Shown here: positions 36,087 to 64,000 of the stretch, in pieces | Position numbering within the stretch: the stretch's first letter is position 1 | Layout of the letters: each line of letters starts with the position of its first letter | Assembly (NCBI RefSeq): GCF_004349065.1 | Contig: NZ_SMKZ01000003.1 | Location: 1-64,000, forward strand | DNA length: 64,000 nucleotides | Direction: 5' to 3' | Source: Jiangella asiatica | Lineage (GTDB): Bacteria; Actinomycetota; Actinomycetes; Jiangellales; Jiangellaceae | Position numbers and translations under genes: made by a program | Notes under the pieces: generated by a model | What the model was told of the DNA's origin: nothing | What the model saw: the letters and a program-made list of their open reading frames with translations, nothing else | The model's database searches: none

Positions 36087-36118
36087 ACTCTAGATGGACT
36101 ATCCAGTCCATCTAGAGT
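36087..36118. promoter_or_regulatory. Extended palindromic operator (14-bp arms)
   Basis: ACTCTAGATGGACT, spacer ATCC, AGTCCATCTAGAGT: a perfect inverted repeat whose core (36096-36109) is GGACTATCCAGTCC. It is the longest and most perfect member of the operator set and lies in the divergent region between the 35555 gene and the sulfite-oxidase-like operon. Confidence 0.7.
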
Positions 36119-51965: not shown

Positions 51966-52047
51966 CGGCTGTCCTCTCCTTGGAGCTCGATGTCTACCCA
52001 GGTGTGTTCCGCGTCCACCGTTCAGCCGTCACGTAGGAGCAAGCTTA

Positions 52048-52118: not shown

Positions 52119-52378
52119 GCTGACCTCGACGAACCGCGCTGTCGAGGCTCGCGAGGCGTCGTTGAGGAACGCGGCTTGCCTCAGGCAGGGTACCGCTACC
52201 GATTGAGAATTGGACCGTCGAGGTCAGTTGTTGGATGATCTGCGTGTAGAACGCCGAGTTCTGGCACCGCGACCAGCTCGCGGACGGATAGCGCGGTGCA
52301 GGCGTGAACGAGATGAAGCGAGGTGTGCGTGATCCGTCCACCCCTCTGCCGGCTTCGAATGACCAGCGTCCTGGACGA

Positions 52379-53446
52379 ATGGATCACGACAACCAGATGA
52401 CAGCGATACCTCCTGAGGACCGAGCCCAAGACGTCCTCGCACCGCCTGCCATGGCGGCGATCTTTCTGACTCTCACGGTCCGTCCCGGTGGTGAGGATGC
52501 AGTCCGTGAGGCGCTTTCAGGGCTCGCTGGGCTCACTCGCGCGATCGGGTTCCGCGTACCGGAGGCCCAATTGAGCTGCGTCGTTGGTGTCGGCGCGAGG
52601 CTGTGGGATCGGATGTACGACGCCCCACGTCCCGTCCGCCTGCACACATTCGAGCCGGTCGTCGGCGCGCAGCACACAGCTGTTTCCACCCCAGGGGACC
52701 TGCTGTTTCACGTACGCGCAACCCGACAAGACCTCTGCTTCGAGCTCTGCTACCAGGTGATGCGCGGCCTCGATGGCTCGGTCGACGCCGTCGATGAGGT
52801 CCATGGATTTCGGTACTGGGACGAACGCGACCTGCTCGGCTTCGTGGATGGCACCGAGAGTCCCACCTCGAGGGTGGCGGCGGCAGCAGCCGGGTTCGTC
52901 GGCGACGAGGATCCGTACTACGTCGGTGGCAGCTATGTGATCGTCCAGAAGTATCTCCATGACCTGGCGGCGTGGGACAAGCTCTCGGTCGAGGAGCAGG
53001 AATTGGCCGTGGGACGCAGGAAGCTCAGCGACATCGAGCTGCCCGACGGGGTCAAGCCGCCCAACTCTCACGTCGCCGCGACGACGATCGTCGACCCCGA
53101 CGGGACCGAGCGACAGATCCTGCGTCACAACATGCCGTTCGGCAACGTTGCGGCCGGCGAGTTCGGTACCTACTTCATCGGCTACGCCGCCGACCCAGCC
53201 GTCATCGAACACATGCTGCAACGCATGTTCATCGGGGAGCCGCCGGGCAACACCGACCGGATCCTCGACTTCTCCACCGCAGTCACAGGTTCTCTGTTCT
53301 TCGTCCCACCTGCGGACTTCCTCGAGGATCCCGACACCGTTGTGGCCGCTGCCTCGTCGCGGGGCCTGGCCACGGCGAACAACGACACGATGCCGAGCGA
53401 CGGGTCGCTCGGCATCGGCAGCTTGAGAAGGAGTAATGGTTCGTGA
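52379..53446 (+). CDS. DyP-type heme peroxidase with encapsulin-targeting tail
   Basis: A 355-residue dye-decolourising peroxidase. The distal GxxDG motif appears as GFVDGTESP, and a proximal His lies in ILRHNMPFGN. The C-terminal 16 residues (SDGSLGIGSLRRSNGS) match the encapsulin cargo-loading peptide (DGSLGIGSLK-like). The next gene, overlapping by GTGA, is the shell protein. Start not certain: ATG 52379 or 52397 both lack a strong Shine-Dalgarno. It oxidises phenolic or dye-like substrates, or deals with peroxide inside the compartment. Confidence 0.93.
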   Translation: MDHDNQMTAIPPEDRAQDVLAPPAMAAIFLTLTVRPGGEDAVREALSGLAGLTRAIGFRVPEAQLSCVVGVGARLWDRMYDAPRPVRLHTFEPVVGAQHTAVSTPGDLLFHVRATRQDLCFELCYQVMRGLDGSVDAVDEVHGFRYWDERDLLGFVDGTESPTSRVAAAAAGFVGDEDPYYVGGSYVIVQKYLHDLAAWDKLSVEEQELAVGRRKLSDIELPDGVKPPNSHVAATTIVDPDGTERQILRHNMPFGNVAAGEFGTYFIGYAADPAVIEHMLQRMFIGEPPGNTDRILDFSTAVTGSLFFVPPADFLEDPDTVVAAASSRGLATANNDTMPSDGSLGIGSLRRSNGS

Positions 53447-54243
53447 ACAACCTGCATCGAGAGCTCGCTCCAATTTCGGATACCGCCTGGACCCGAATCG
53501 AAGACGAGGCGCGCCGCACCTTCACCGAATGGATCGCCGGCCGTCGGATCGTAGACCTCGTAGGGCCAACTGGCCCGGACCTCGCGGCGGTCGGCACTGG
53601 GCACCTCGAAGCCCTCGTCGATCCGATGGACGGTGTCATCGCTCGACAGCATCAGGCCCAGAACGTCGTCGAACTACGGGTGCCGTTCTTCGTCACCAGG
53701 GCCGCCATCGATGACGTCGAACGCGGCGCGGAAGACTCCGACTGGGAGCCCGTGAAGGACGCGGCGCAGAAGATCGCGGTCGCCGAAGACCGTGTTGTGT
53801 TCCACGGGTTCCCAGCCGCGGGGATCGCTGGCATCACGTCGAGCAGCGGCCACCAGCCGCTGCCGTTGTCTCCCGAAGTGCGCAAGATTCCCGACTCCGT
53901 AGCCCGAGCGTTGAGCACACTTCGGCTCGCCGGAGTCGGCGGCCCCTACAGCCTGCTGCTGTCGGCCGAGATCTACACCGCTGTCTCCGAGGAGACCGAC
54001 CACGGCTACCCGATTCTCGAGCACATCGCGCGACTCATCGACAGCGACATCATCTGGGCACCGGCACTCCAGGGCGCCCTGTTGGTCTCCACCCGCGGCG
54101 GCGATTACACCCTCCACCTCGGTCAAGATCTGTCGATCGGGTACCTCTCACACGATGCCGAGCGCGTGGAACTCTATCTCCAGGAGTCGTTGACCTTCCT
54201 CACCAACGCACCAGAGTCCAGCCTCGCGCTCACAACCGGCTGA
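53443..54243 (+). CDS. Encapsulin shell protein (linocin M18 family)
   Basis: This 266-residue HK97-fold capsid-like protein has the normal length. The N-terminus LHRELAPISDTAWTRIEDEA and the internal segments RIVDLVGPTGPDL and YLQESLTFLTNAPESSLAL are typical of family 1 encapsulins. It assembles into a hollow protein nanocompartment around the DyP enzyme. GTG start, coupled to the peroxidase. No further cargo gene follows. Confidence 0.95.
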   Translation: MNNLHRELAPISDTAWTRIEDEARRTFTEWIAGRRIVDLVGPTGPDLAAVGTGHLEALVDPMDGVIARQHQAQNVVELRVPFFVTRAAIDDVERGAEDSDWEPVKDAAQKIAVAEDRVVFHGFPAAGIAGITSSSGHQPLPLSPEVRKIPDSVARALSTLRLAGVGGPYSLLLSAEIYTAVSEETDHGYPILEHIARLIDSDIIWAPALQGALLVSTRGGDYTLHLGQDLSIGYLSHDAERVELYLQESLTFLTNAPESSLALTTG

Positions 54244-54665
54244 CGAGCGCGACAACCGCGTCCCGCCGCCGTGCAAGGCACGTATTCCAGCCGCCACCGG
54301 ACAGGTCAGCCTGCGTCGGGTGCCCTCGAACCATGATGCGGCTCATACTCGAAGAAGTCGGCTGGCCCGGCCGTCTGACCGTGTCCGACCATCGATGCCA
54401 GGCCCGTCTGCGGACCCTGAAGGTGACCATCACGGCGTACCAGGGCGCGCCAGCGTCGCGCCATGCTCAAATCGGTGTTGCGCTCCGCCATCATGTCGTA
54501 AGTCTGCTTCCGCCCGGGTGTGATGTCACGTTGTTGAATGGACACTGGGTGGTCTCTGCGGTCCAGTCTCCTCGCGTCGACGGCGTTGGTGGTGCGGTCT
54601 GTCCGTTGTGCCTGCGCAGGGCCGGTTGACCGGCTCCGATCAACCAGGCCGGTAGCCTTGCCTTC
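54244..54665. other. Gap between encapsulin and TetR genes
   Basis: No supported gene. It holds an inverted repeat GGTTGA-N10-TCAACC at about 54624-54645, 20 bases before the TetR start, which could be an autoregulatory operator. Small open frames on both strands are low complexity. Confidence 0.45.
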
Positions 54666-55295
54666 GTGACCAGGTCAGAGAGTGCCGAAGTGGAGCCGAG
54701 GCTCACGCCCCGCGGCGCGGCGACGAGGCGGCGTATCGTCGCCGCTGCTGCCGAGCTCATGTACGTCAAGGGGGTCAGTTCGACCACTCTGGACGAGGTC
54801 CTCGCCGCGAGTGGCACGAGCAAGTCTCAGCTCTACAACCACTTCTCCGACAAGGAGCAGCTGGTCCGCGCCGTGGTCCAGCTACGTGCGGAAGAGATCC
54901 TGGAGCGCGAGCGCGCGGCGCTACAGCGACTCAGATCGTTCAACGGCCTGGTTCGGTGGAGGGACGCGCTCGTCCAGCGCAACGCGCTGCAGAAGGGTGC
55001 GTACGGCTGCATGCTCGGCGCTCTCGCCGGCGAGGTCTCCGACCAGGACGAAGTCGCCCGCTTGGCCCTGGCACAGACCTTCGACGAGTGGGAAGGCCTC
55101 ATTGAGGCCGGCCTGCGTCGCATGCAGGAGGCCCGGACACTCGCGGCCGGCGCCGACCCTCGAAGGCTCGCGACCGGGCTGATGGCCGCGCTGCAAGGGG
55201 GTTACCTGTTGGCCCAGGCCGCTCATGACGTCGCACCCATGGAGATTGCGCTCGACATGGCGCTCGATCACGTCAGAGCGTTCGTCTCAGCCTGA
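54666..55295 (+). CDS. TetR-family transcriptional regulator
   Basis: The 209-residue regulator has an N-terminal HTH (about 20-66: RRRIVAAAAELMYVKGV then TTLDEVLAASGTSKSQLYNHF) and a TetR C-terminal ligand domain with WRDALVQRNALQKGAYGC and TFDEWEGLIEAGLRRM. GTG start at 54666. The recognition helix SKSQLYNHFSDKEQLV is nearly the same as in the partial TetR at 63587, so both may bind the same GGAC-N6-GTCC palindromes. It lies 12 bases before the end of the converging HTH-less paralogue. Confidence 0.9.
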   Translation: MTRSESAEVEPRLTPRGAATRRRIVAAAAELMYVKGVSSTTLDEVLAASGTSKSQLYNHFSDKEQLVRAVVQLRAEEILERERAALQRLRSFNGLVRWRDALVQRNALQKGAYGCMLGALAGEVSDQDEVARLALAQTFDEWEGLIEAGLRRMQEARTLAAGADPRRLATGLMAALQGGYLLAQAAHDVAPMEIALDMALDHVRAFVSA

Positions 55296-55307
55296 GGAGC
55301 ACGGTGC

Positions 55308-55790
55308 TCACCTGGCAGAATACGAGCGGACATGGCTCAGCGCCAGGTCGAGCGCGGCCTCCAGCCGGGCGATATCCCGGCTCGTTCTGGCCAGCAGCGA
55401 TCCGCCCTCCAGCGCAGCTGTCAAGGCCATGGCCAGCCTGGCCGGATTCGTATCGAGCACCAGTTCACCGTTCTTCCGCATTCGGTCGAGGCCGGCCGCC
55501 AGCCACGCCTCCAGTGTGTCGAGGGGGACGAGACGCGATATCAGTGAACCGTCGCCCTTGCACGTGCAGCCGGCCGCATCGGGCGCCGCGACCGCGCCAA
55601 GGATCATGTGCCGATGCACCCCTATGATCTCATCGCGCCAACGCGCTAGGTCCTCGAGCGAGTCCAGACTGCACAGTGGCAAACGCCCCCAGCACAAGGT
55701 ATCGCTGGACGGGTCGGCCATAGCCTCCACGCCCGGACATGCACCGTGGTCCATCGGCGAACCGTCGTCGTCGTGGTCTTCAGAGCCCAT
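55308..55790 (-). CDS. TetR C-terminal-domain protein without a DNA-binding domain
   Basis: The 160-residue protein carries the C-terminal domain of the neighbouring TetR proteins (LARWRDEIIG..., then LDTLEAWLAAGLDRMRKN and ARLAMALTAALEGGSLLARTSRDIARLE) but no helix-turn-helix. The first 50 residues are an acidic, non-HTH segment (GSEDHDDDGSPMDHGACPGVEAMADP). ATG 55790 with GGGAAG upstream is preferred over 55844, which would put an operator inside the coding region. It may sequester ligand or form dimers with the full-length TetR proteins. Alternatively it is a decayed gene whose HTH was lost. Confidence 0.7.
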   Translation of the reverse strand: MGSEDHDDDGSPMDHGACPGVEAMADPSSDTLCWGRLPLCSLDSLEDLARWRDEIIGVHRHMILGAVAAPDAAGCTCKGDGSLISRLVPLDTLEAWLAAGLDRMRKNGELVLDTNPARLAMALTAALEGGSLLARTSRDIARLEAALDLALSHVRSYSAR

Positions 55791-55828
55791 TCTTGATCTT
55801 CCCGTCTCACAGTCTTCCAGTTGGGGGT

Positions 55829-55842
55829 GGACGGTACAGTCC
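55829..55842. promoter_or_regulatory. Palindromic operator GGACGGTACAGTCC
   Basis: A member of the GGAC-N6-GTCC set flanked by T and A (TGGAC...GTCCA). It lies 39 bases upstream of the HTH-less TetR start, so this gene is probably under the control of the full TetR. Confidence 0.65.
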
Positions 55843-55844
55843 AC

Positions 55845-56182
55845 CAGGTAGACATCCCTGGCCGCCCAGGGAACGAAGTAGTAGCGATGAACTGCCTAGT
55901 TGCCAGGCGCTCCCCTCGGGGTACGGCCGAGGATCATACGTTGTAGTCCATAGGGCGCGACCCGTGCCGGTGCTGCGCGGAGGTTCATGTGCGCGCCGGG
56001 CACAGCTATATGACCACGTCAAGACACGTTCTTCGGCACGATGACGGCACTCGTAAGGCGAGAGCATTCCGTGATCGGGAAGTCTCTACCGGCTTGTAAT
56101 GGACTATATCGTCCATGTAGCGTAGTTCCTGACCACCTGAACGGGCTGAGTACCAGGTGACGATCGCCGCTCGAGGAGAACC
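55845..56182. other. Divergent gap between HTH-less TetR and sigma factor genes
   Basis: Apart from the operator at 56101-56114 and the sigma-factor ribosome-binding site (GAGGAG near 56174), the interval shows no coding signal. Promoters for both directions should lie here. Confidence 0.5.
56101..56114. promoter_or_regulatory. Palindromic operator GGACTATATCGTCC
   Basis: GGAC-N6-GTCC with flanking ATGG...CCAT, 69 bases before the sigma factor start. Its TATAT centre overlaps a plausible -10 element. Confidence 0.65.
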
Positions 56183-56932
56183 ATGCCGATCGAAGAGAAC
56201 GACCCGCCCCGAACGGACACGCCGGGCCTCCCTCCAGCAGTTGGTGGCAACAGCGCACGGGTTCTCACCGCGGACGTCATCCGGGAGAACCAGGATTGGG
56301 TGCGCGGACTCAGCGCCACCGGGGACACCCAGGAACGCGCCAGCCGGCATCTCTATTCACTTCTGCTCCGCGCGGCTCAAGCCGAAGCCCGGCGGGTCGC
56401 ATCCCGGCTCCAGCTCGCAGGCCCCGAGGCGGACGATCTCGCTCATCAAGCCGCAGCGGACGCGCTGCTCACCATCACCAGTAAAGTCGAGGCCTTCCGG
56501 GGCGAGAGCAAGTTCACCACCTGGGCGTACAAGTTCGTGATCTTCGCAGTGGCGGGCAAGGTCAACCGCCACTTCTGGCAACGTGCCGGCATGGCGCTCG
56601 ACGACGGAGACTGGGACGCATTCCCCGCTCGTGGCGGCGGCCCCGAAGACTGGGTCGAAGCGCGCGACCTCGCAAACGCCGTCCGACACGCTGTCGACGA
56701 AGCGCTGACGGCCAGGCAGCGCGCGGTCTTCGTCGCCCTGGTGCTCGACGAGACGCCGATGAACGTGCTCGCCAGCCGGCTCGACTCTACACACAACGCG
56801 ATCTACAAGACGATGTTCGACGCTCGCAAGAAGCTCCGCTCCACCCTCGTCCGCGGCGGCTACCTGCCTGAACAGCAGCGGACGCGTGACGACATCGAGC
56901 ATGCCCAGCTTCAACCTCTCACTGCGTCATGA
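56183..56932 (+). CDS. ECF-type RNA polymerase sigma factor
   Basis: This is a 249-residue sigma-70-family factor. Region 2 is FRGESKFTTWAYKFVIFAVAGKVNRHFW (about 92-120), and region 4 includes ALTARQRAVFVALVLDETPMNVLASRL and STHNAIYKTMFDARKKL. A long N-terminal extension of about 55 residues precedes region 2. No anti-sigma gene is adjacent. It lies under a GGAC-N6-GTCC operator, so a TetR signal may feed into a wider sigma-dependent stress response. Confidence 0.88.
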   Translation: MPIEENDPPRTDTPGLPPAVGGNSARVLTADVIRENQDWVRGLSATGDTQERASRHLYSLLLRAAQAEARRVASRLQLAGPEADDLAHQAAADALLTITSKVEAFRGESKFTTWAYKFVIFAVAGKVNRHFWQRAGMALDDGDWDAFPARGGGPEDWVEARDLANAVRHAVDEALTARQRAVFVALVLDETPMNVLASRLDSTHNAIYKTMFDARKKLRSTLVRGGYLPEQQRTRDDIEHAQLQPLTAS

Positions 56933-63586: not shown

Positions 63587-64000
63587 ATGGCCCGCTTGGA
63601 GGAGAGTTCAAGCCAGGCCGCGGCCTCGCGGCTGACGGCGCGTGGCGCGAAGACGAGGTCTCGGATCATCGCCGCGGCAGCCGACCTGATGCACGTACAA
63701 GGTGTCGGCGGCACGACCCTCGATGACGTCATCGCAGCCAGCAACGTGAGCAAGTCGCAGCTGTACCGGCACTTCGAAGACAAGCAGGCGCTGGTCAGGG
63801 CCGTTATCGAGCTGGTGGGGGACCGTACGATCGCTGTCGAACGGCGGCGGCTGAGCAAGGTGACGACGCTCGTAGAGCTGACGGGTTGGAGGGATGGACT
63901 GGTCGAGAACAACGCCCTGCGCAAGGGCAGGTATGGGTGCCCGTTGGGTTCGCTGGTCATCGAGGTCGCCGATCACGACGCGATCGCGCGCAAGAAGCTC
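63587..64000 (+). CDS. TetR-family transcriptional regulator (runs off the window)
   Basis: The first 138 codons are present. The N-terminal HTH (TRSRIIAAAADLMHVQGV, then TTLDDVIAASNVSKSQLYRHF) and the start of the ligand domain (WRDGLVENNALRKGRYGCPLGSLVIEV) closely match the TetR at 54666. ATG 63587 has AGGAGG 11 bases upstream. The 3' end lies beyond base 64000. The same recognition helix suggests shared operators. Confidence 0.88.
   Translation, partial: MARLEESSSQAAASRLTARGAKTRSRIIAAAADLMHVQGVGGTTLDDVIAASNVSKSQLYRHFEDKQALVRAVIELVGDRTIAVERRRLSKVTTLVELTGWRDGLVENNALRKGRYGCPLGSLVIEVADHDAIARKKL

Follow-up and report, generated by a model that had tools for sequence, protein, structure and literature searches.

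A conserved TetR-like protein without a helix-turn-helix, encoded convergently to a full-length regulator in Jiangella asiatica, is a candidate anti-repressor

Introduction

Few bacterial switches are as common as TetR regulators, which are usually described by a scheme of one protein, one ligand, and one operator. TetR with a mutated helix-turn-helix (HTH) acts as a transdominant protein. Members of the LmrA/YxaF type (TetR_C_13 and TetR_C_13_2) are regulators with an HTH. In TetR proteins, helices 8 and 9 mediate dimerization, helices 5 to 7 form the ligand cavity, and helix 4 is tied to conformational change, according to an extract of PMC13176608.

The closest described systems belong to the LuxR family. 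As presented in an extract of PMC11655674, TrlR of Agrobacterium is a paralogue of TraR without DNA-binding domain that opposes it through inactive heterodimers, and CerN of Cereibacter is a paralogue devoid of DNA-binding domain that opposes the full regulator CerM, the autoinducer-binding domain being retained in CerN. Within the TetR family, mixed dimers of paralogues occur in nature, as documented for ScbR and ScbR2 of Streptomyces coelicolor in an extract of PMC6667686; both proteins also bind DNA as homodimers, and pairing with each other adds a target and does not abolish DNA binding. In Mce3R, two non-identical TetR units share one four-helix bundle, although these units are part of a single chain with two HTHs (extract of PMC11667970). 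Among the matches listed by a literature search, which left most subscription papers outside, we found no natural HTH-less TetR antagonist.

Here, we analyze a locus located in a 64,000-nucleotide stretch of DNA from Jiangella asiatica (the window; contig NZ_SMKZ01000003.1, positions 1 to 64,000) that encodes an HTH-less TetR-like protein. As in the TrlR and CerN systems, there is an HTH-less paralogue of a full regulator, recognized here from its sequence; unlike TrlR and CerN, it belongs to the TetR family, and the heterodimer reported for TrlR is a prediction for this pair. By analogy, we slightly favor the reading that the pair embodies the TrlR principle in the TetR fold. The C-terminal domains of the short protein and of its neighbor are of the LmrA/YxaF type, some short forms scoring below the family cut-off, but the short protein differs from the members of that family by having no HTH.

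Results

The short open reading frame, at positions 55,308 to 55,790 of the minus strand, encodes a protein of 160 residues, and the same gene was found in six further genomes. The ATG at 55,790 is the likely start codon, since the orthologues from genome G001 and Actinopolymorpha pittospori share the same initial MGS residues. The C-terminal part of the protein matched the product of the gene at 54,666 to 55,295 (37% over 131 residues; E = 1e-19), and a search of the genome itself retrieved the TetR gene at 63,587 (31%; E = 1.9e-8), in agreement with the homology proposed by an initial sequence-only reading of the window. The TetR_N family (PF00440) gave no match up to E = 10 in the window protein, versus ~49 bits for each of the two full regulators, and none up to the same E value in any of the seven short forms. 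A frameshifted or nearby HTH was sought by eye in the six frames of positions 55,301 to 56,190 and was not found. The HTH loss noted in the sequence-only reading is thus confirmed, and an HTH is likewise missing from this frame in the other six short forms.

A local HTH profile likewise failed to match six of the seven short forms, those then known. Among 86 distinct TetR-like open reading frames in the scanned loci, 10 had no match to this profile, namely these six short forms (93 to 227 bits) and four remote frames (25 to 39 bits), the bit scores being those of a profile built partly from the short forms themselves. Reading of the four remote frames in full by eye revealed a TetR-like HTH that the local profile had missed. 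Independent HTH losses on Streptomyces plasmids were also considered and rejected, as the two unannotated tblastn hits that were opened, with nine other plasmid records left unopened, both have an HTH.

The full-length regulator gene (54,666 to 55,295, plus strand) is convergent with the short gene, from which it is separated by 12 bp. Its product contains TetR_N and TetR_C_13, confirming the adjoining full regulator of the sequence-only reading, and is predicted by AlphaFold2 to form nine helices (pLDDT 92). We consider it the proposed partner and target of the short protein. A second full-length paralogue, assigned by Pfam and homology, starts at 63,587 on the plus strand and extends beyond the window end (64,000); it occupies a tree branch separate from the 54,666 group. 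Within tens of kilobases, there are paralogues that have the helix 8-9 core in common. In G001, three full regulators of the 54,666 type lie within ~32 kb (contig C1, positions 5211870, 5233158, and 5243766), and a short gene was not detected next to two of these three copies.

Genomes G000 to G673 were surveyed with E cut-offs that varied by search from 1e-3 to 1e-20. In some searches, the candidates scored in each genome were limited in number, so that genome counts are lower bounds. The HTH-less form was present in at least seven genomes of at least three genera, the latter number being concluded because the family of A. pittospori (8 genomes) and that of the window have no genome in common. 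Of 12 genomes in the genus of the window, two had the short form (the window's own and G001), and G008 had a full regulator with no short gene found. A. pittospori provided the sole locus from a scan of named genomes, accounting for one of the eight genomes searched in its family. Searches of 393 genomes of the class and of 297 genomes of the family of G315 added at least three genomes, G315, G609, and G632, and G661 came from a search of 54 genomes in G315's own genus, bringing that genus to at least 4 of 54. The short forms of the window, G001, and A. pittospori, hereafter clade A, are 61 to 62% identical, and those of G315, G609, G632, and G661 constitute clade B, whose genes start, in our own reading, with GTG. 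Between clades, the window protein reached 39 to 41% with G315 and G609 in pairwise alignments and 36% with G315 in the multiple alignment. Its presence in seven genomes of three or more genera shows that the HTH-less form is not a local deletion.

In 7/7 genomes, the short gene is convergent with a 54,666-type full TetR gene as its 3' neighbor, the G661 contig holding just the last codons of that neighbor. The short gene is dispensable, since none was found within ~1.5 to 10 kb on each side of seven related full regulators (G008, G564, G630, G619, G477, G457, and G626). No remnant of it was detected beside these regulators or the two G001 copies, the strong tblastn hits being the full gene's own C-terminal domain. 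All seven short genes have open frames. In the G632 copy (locus L117, 10052 to 10411), most of helices 8 and 9 has been eliminated by an in-frame deletion of 42 codons, and the adjacent full TetR gene is intact.

A tree of 69 C-terminal domains, which was based on few columns and took in five short forms (all except those of G632 and G661), grouped these forms into a single clade (support 91/85; recovered in 92% of bootstrap trees) located beside, and not within, the group of close full regulators. A single old loss of the HTH is favored, because the five short forms share one branch outside the close full regulators; with five short forms and few columns, the tree leaves a single origin short of proof. 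Gene conversion was rejected as the basis of C-terminal conservation, the longest exact stretches of DNA shared by short and full genes being 9 to 17 nt within a genome and 9 to 23 nt between genomes.

AlphaFold2 was applied solely to the window's short protein and its full neighbor. The model of the short protein (mean pLDDT 72) comprises helices at residues 45 to 64, 90 to 106, 116 to 137, and 141 to 155, with pLDDT values below 50 at residues 1 to 29 and 67 to 85, of 92 to 98 in the blocks from residue 91 on, and of 93 to 98 in the helix 8-9 block. According to an alignment, the window's short form retains helices 5, 7 (shortened), 8, and 9 and lacks helices 1 to 4 and 6. The predicted dimerization helices (residues 116 to 155; codons at 55,326 to 55,445, minus strand), mostly deleted in G632, are therefore present in the window copy. 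Foldseek retrieved no solved structure at E ≤ 0.001 with this model; among its candidates, VIA-align superimposed the C-terminal parts of TtgR, AvaR1, and NemR (Z 9.7; rmsd 2.9 to 3.7 over 102 to 105 residues), a middling match for helical bundles.

The ligand domain is largely retained in the clade B short forms, more than in clade A. TetR_C_13 scores (cut-off 27) were 40.7 to 47.7 bits for the undeleted clade B copies (G315, G609, and G661) and below the cut-off for the window (23.6), G001 (24.8), A. pittospori (22.0), and the deleted G632 copy (14.3). A cysteine invariant in 64/64 aligned full relatives is missing from four of the seven short forms (window, G001, A. pittospori, and G661); 3 of 66 rows were dropped from these alignments (L001, the window's own gene; L015; and L060). 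In clade B, this residue persists as a GCPLG-like Cys in three of the four copies, and the clade A copies have another Cys near the lost position. The LuxR autoinducer-binding domain was not detected in the seven short forms, Pfam returning TetR_C families and sub-threshold DUFs only.

dN/dS ratios were estimated with our own pairwise codon model (GY94 type, F3x4) and not with a standard package. They were below 1 in 8/8 pairs (0.19 to 0.54), the pairs having taxa in common, each lying within a single clade, and G632-G661 being left out. The values were 0.40, 0.50, and 0.54 for window-G001, window-A. pittospori, and G001-A. pittospori, respectively (2ΔlnL of 14.9, 8.5, and 6.3), and 0.19, 0.19, and 0.25 for G315-G609, G315-G661, and G609-G661 (2ΔlnL of 33.4, 32.4, and 16.4). 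With what remains of the deleted G632 copy, they were 0.29 (G315) and 0.34 (G609), with 2ΔlnL of 15.7 and 8.1. Ratios near one, as expected by the sequence-only reading if the gene had no function, were therefore not observed, indicating that the short-form family is not decayed. The open frame alone is weak evidence for this, since neutral simulation of three pairs gave probabilities of 0.14, 0.14, and 0.38 for the absence of a stop codon.

Constraint was unevenly distributed. Omega was lowest in the C-terminal helices (0.06 to 0.29; significant in 6/6 pairs), which form the most constrained segment, intermediate in the core (0.16 to 0.53; significantly <1 in 5/6 pairs), and highest in the N-terminal tail (0.51 to 1.22; significantly <1 in 0/6 pairs). 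The clade A full regulator displayed the opposite gradient (HTH, 0.03; core, 0.09; C terminus, 0.14). Because omega is lowest in the C-terminal helices and rises toward the N terminus, we conclude that these helices are the main reason for the retention of the short gene. In the tail (residues 1 to 43; 55,662 to 55,790, minus strand), constraint was undetectable. The acidic Asp/His-rich N terminus pointed out in the sequence-only reading does exist in the window copy; it is limited to that copy, two orthologues reading MGSEDDRGEGSSM and MGSTDHYSQGSSM, and, as the segment is unconserved and under no significant constraint, a functional Asp/His tail was rejected. The short forms of clade A diverge faster than their full partners (61 to 62% versus 83 to 87% identity), which is compatible with partial decay too. 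Together, these results show that the short form is real, conserved, and selected.

A TGGACTATATAGTCCA-like palindrome (13 to 15 matches out of 16) ends 35 to 37 nt before the start codon in 7/7 short genes. The probability of at least 13/16 at one position is ~7e-7 under an assumed composition, with a consensus drawn partly from these very sites. In the window, the candidate operator TGGACTGTACCGTCCA (55,828 to 55,843, minus strand; 13/16) ends 37 nt before the ATG. The shared operator of the sequence-only reading is thus present before the short gene, although TGGACN6GTCCA as a bare pattern shows no genome-wide enrichment (36 sites versus 49 for the reversed control); the informative signal is the version with an AT core, which is clustered in this region and fixed before the short gene. 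Sites scoring at least 13/16 numbered 31 in 14 stretches, four of which had none. No consensus promoter or terminator was found in positions 54,600 to 56,200.

The 54,666 regulator probably binds the TGGACTATATAGTCCA-like operator, since such operators precede full TetR genes in G008, G315, G609, and G632. In clade A, the short genes have a better match (14 to 15/16) additionally 116 to 309 nt upstream, and the promoter of the full gene itself is without a good operator (9 to 11/16). A 16/16 operator is located 88 nt upstream of the full gene in G008, and its contrast with the weak site of clade A suggests that operator control moved from the full to the short gene in that clade.

Other operators of at least 13/16 in the window precede a molybdopterin oxidoreductase gene (36,095), a heavy-metal P-type ATPase gene and, divergently, an SDR frame (46,446), and a sigma-factor-like gene (56,183 to 56,932), for which the site TGGACTATATCGTCCA (56,100 to 56,115, plus strand; 15/16) is separated by 67 nt from the first start codon listed. 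The product of the latter gene matched NCBIfam sigma70-ECF (44.0 bits; cut-off 42.9) and no Pfam family at E ≤ 0.001. The sites at 36,095, 46,446, and 56,100 hint at a regulon for redox or metal stress. In other genomes, some operators precede a gene starting MKAIVVTDEAAG, which we take to be quinone-oxidoreductase-like, a presumably CtaD-like gene, and an acetyltransferase-like gene. The theme of the regulon looks like redox or electrophile stress, and our guess for the inducer is a quinone or an electrophile. Several arrangements were observed in addition. A full TetR gene is divergent from the MKAIVVTDEAAG gene, with operators between them, in three loci (L118, 6046 to 7755; L116, 10300 to 12185; L117, 8309 to 10062). 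At positions 52,304 to 54,243 of the window, the gene for a DyP peroxidase is immediately followed by the shell gene of a family 1 encapsulin, and AGGACTAGTTCGTCCA, an operator-like site of lesser quality (12/16), is situated upstream of this pair at 52,047. The imperfect palindrome TGGTCGGTCAAGTCCA is identical in three genomes (window, 46,180; L024, 6434; L027, 5734); in the window and in L027, the conserved portion of an SDR gene lies downstream of it.

Discussion

We lean slightly toward the short protein being a natural anti-repressor, that is, a heterodimer poison of the full regulator 54,666. It keeps the predicted helix 8/helix 9 dimerization surface without an HTH, and the window copy has additionally lost helices 4 and 6 and the conserved Cys. 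It would pair with 54,666 monomers, and the mixed dimer, with a single HTH, would be unable to hold the palindromic operator. The short gene would be expressed upon derepression of the regulon, its own promoter bearing the repressor's operator, and the short protein should therefore rise at that time and reinforce the response by draining leftover repressor; this double-negative arrangement would amount to positive feedback, the predicted direction of the loop. The dominant-negative partner, one of the roles envisaged in the sequence-only reading, best explains the retention of the dimer helices, of the pairing with the regulator, and of the operator together with the loss of the DNA grip. The observed basis consists of the absence of the HTH, the C-terminal homology, selection focused on the C terminus, the fixed operator, and the convergent pairing. 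Counting against this reading are the faster divergence of the short forms relative to their partners, the G632 deletion, the seven related full regulators near which no short gene was found, the larger part of the ligand domain kept in clade B, and the modest mean pLDDT of the short model with no Foldseek match. For the complete scheme, a TetR-derived dedicated anti-repressor, convergent to its parent and under its parent's operator, that poisons it by heterodimerization to give a self-sustaining switch, we put the chances at even.

The alternatives differ in what the short protein would do once made. As a stand-alone ligand buffer or sensor, a short homodimer would bind the regulator's small molecule and delay or sharpen induction. 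The three undeleted clade B copies retain much of the ligand domain, a Cys is found at or near the conserved position in most copies, and the core is constrained; however, the window model lacks helices 4 and 6 and is disordered at residues 67 to 85, the invariant Cys is missing from four short forms, and it is the C-terminal helices, rather than the pocket, that are under the strongest selection. We hold this reading unlikely, and the ligand sink of the sequence-only reading is disfavored relative to the dominant-negative partner, since the window copy lost helix 6 and the Cys and kept helices 8 and 9. A decaying remnant of a duplicated TetR gene would account for the nearly free evolution of the tail, the faster evolution relative to the partner, the G632 deletion, and an open frame that could persist by chance, but omega is below 1 in every pair, a single one-codon length difference separates the three clade A copies, the operator spacing is fixed, and the gene occurs in different genera and families. 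Decay is thus quite unlikely for the family, although it may fit G632, whose copy could not act as a heterodimer poison because 42 codons covering most of helices 8 and 9 are gone.

Two further readings keep a partner and change the outcome or the partner. A heterodimer with one HTH might act on altered or half sites, or the tail might recruit a factor, so that the regulator would be redirected and not disabled. The natural ScbR/ScbR2 heterodimer with its new target offers a precedent (extract of PMC6667686), but the short protein has no HTH for a second contact, the tail is unconserved, and the operators found are near-symmetric, leaving only a small chance for a specificity modifier. Alternatively, the true partner could be another paralogue, 63,587 or a distant one, with the 54,666 neighbor merely co-inherited. 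The nearby paralogues that share the helix 8-9 core would allow this, yet the adjacency of a 54,666-type gene in all seven genomes makes it very improbable.

If the anti-repressor reading is true, the TetR scheme would gain positive feedback and an antagonist acting at the protein level, and the trick of the LuxR-family protein TrlR would have arisen in TetR as well. The short protein would also supply TetR circuits with a tuning component that exists already. Hits to TetR that are short and have no HTH are not to be dismissed as fragments.
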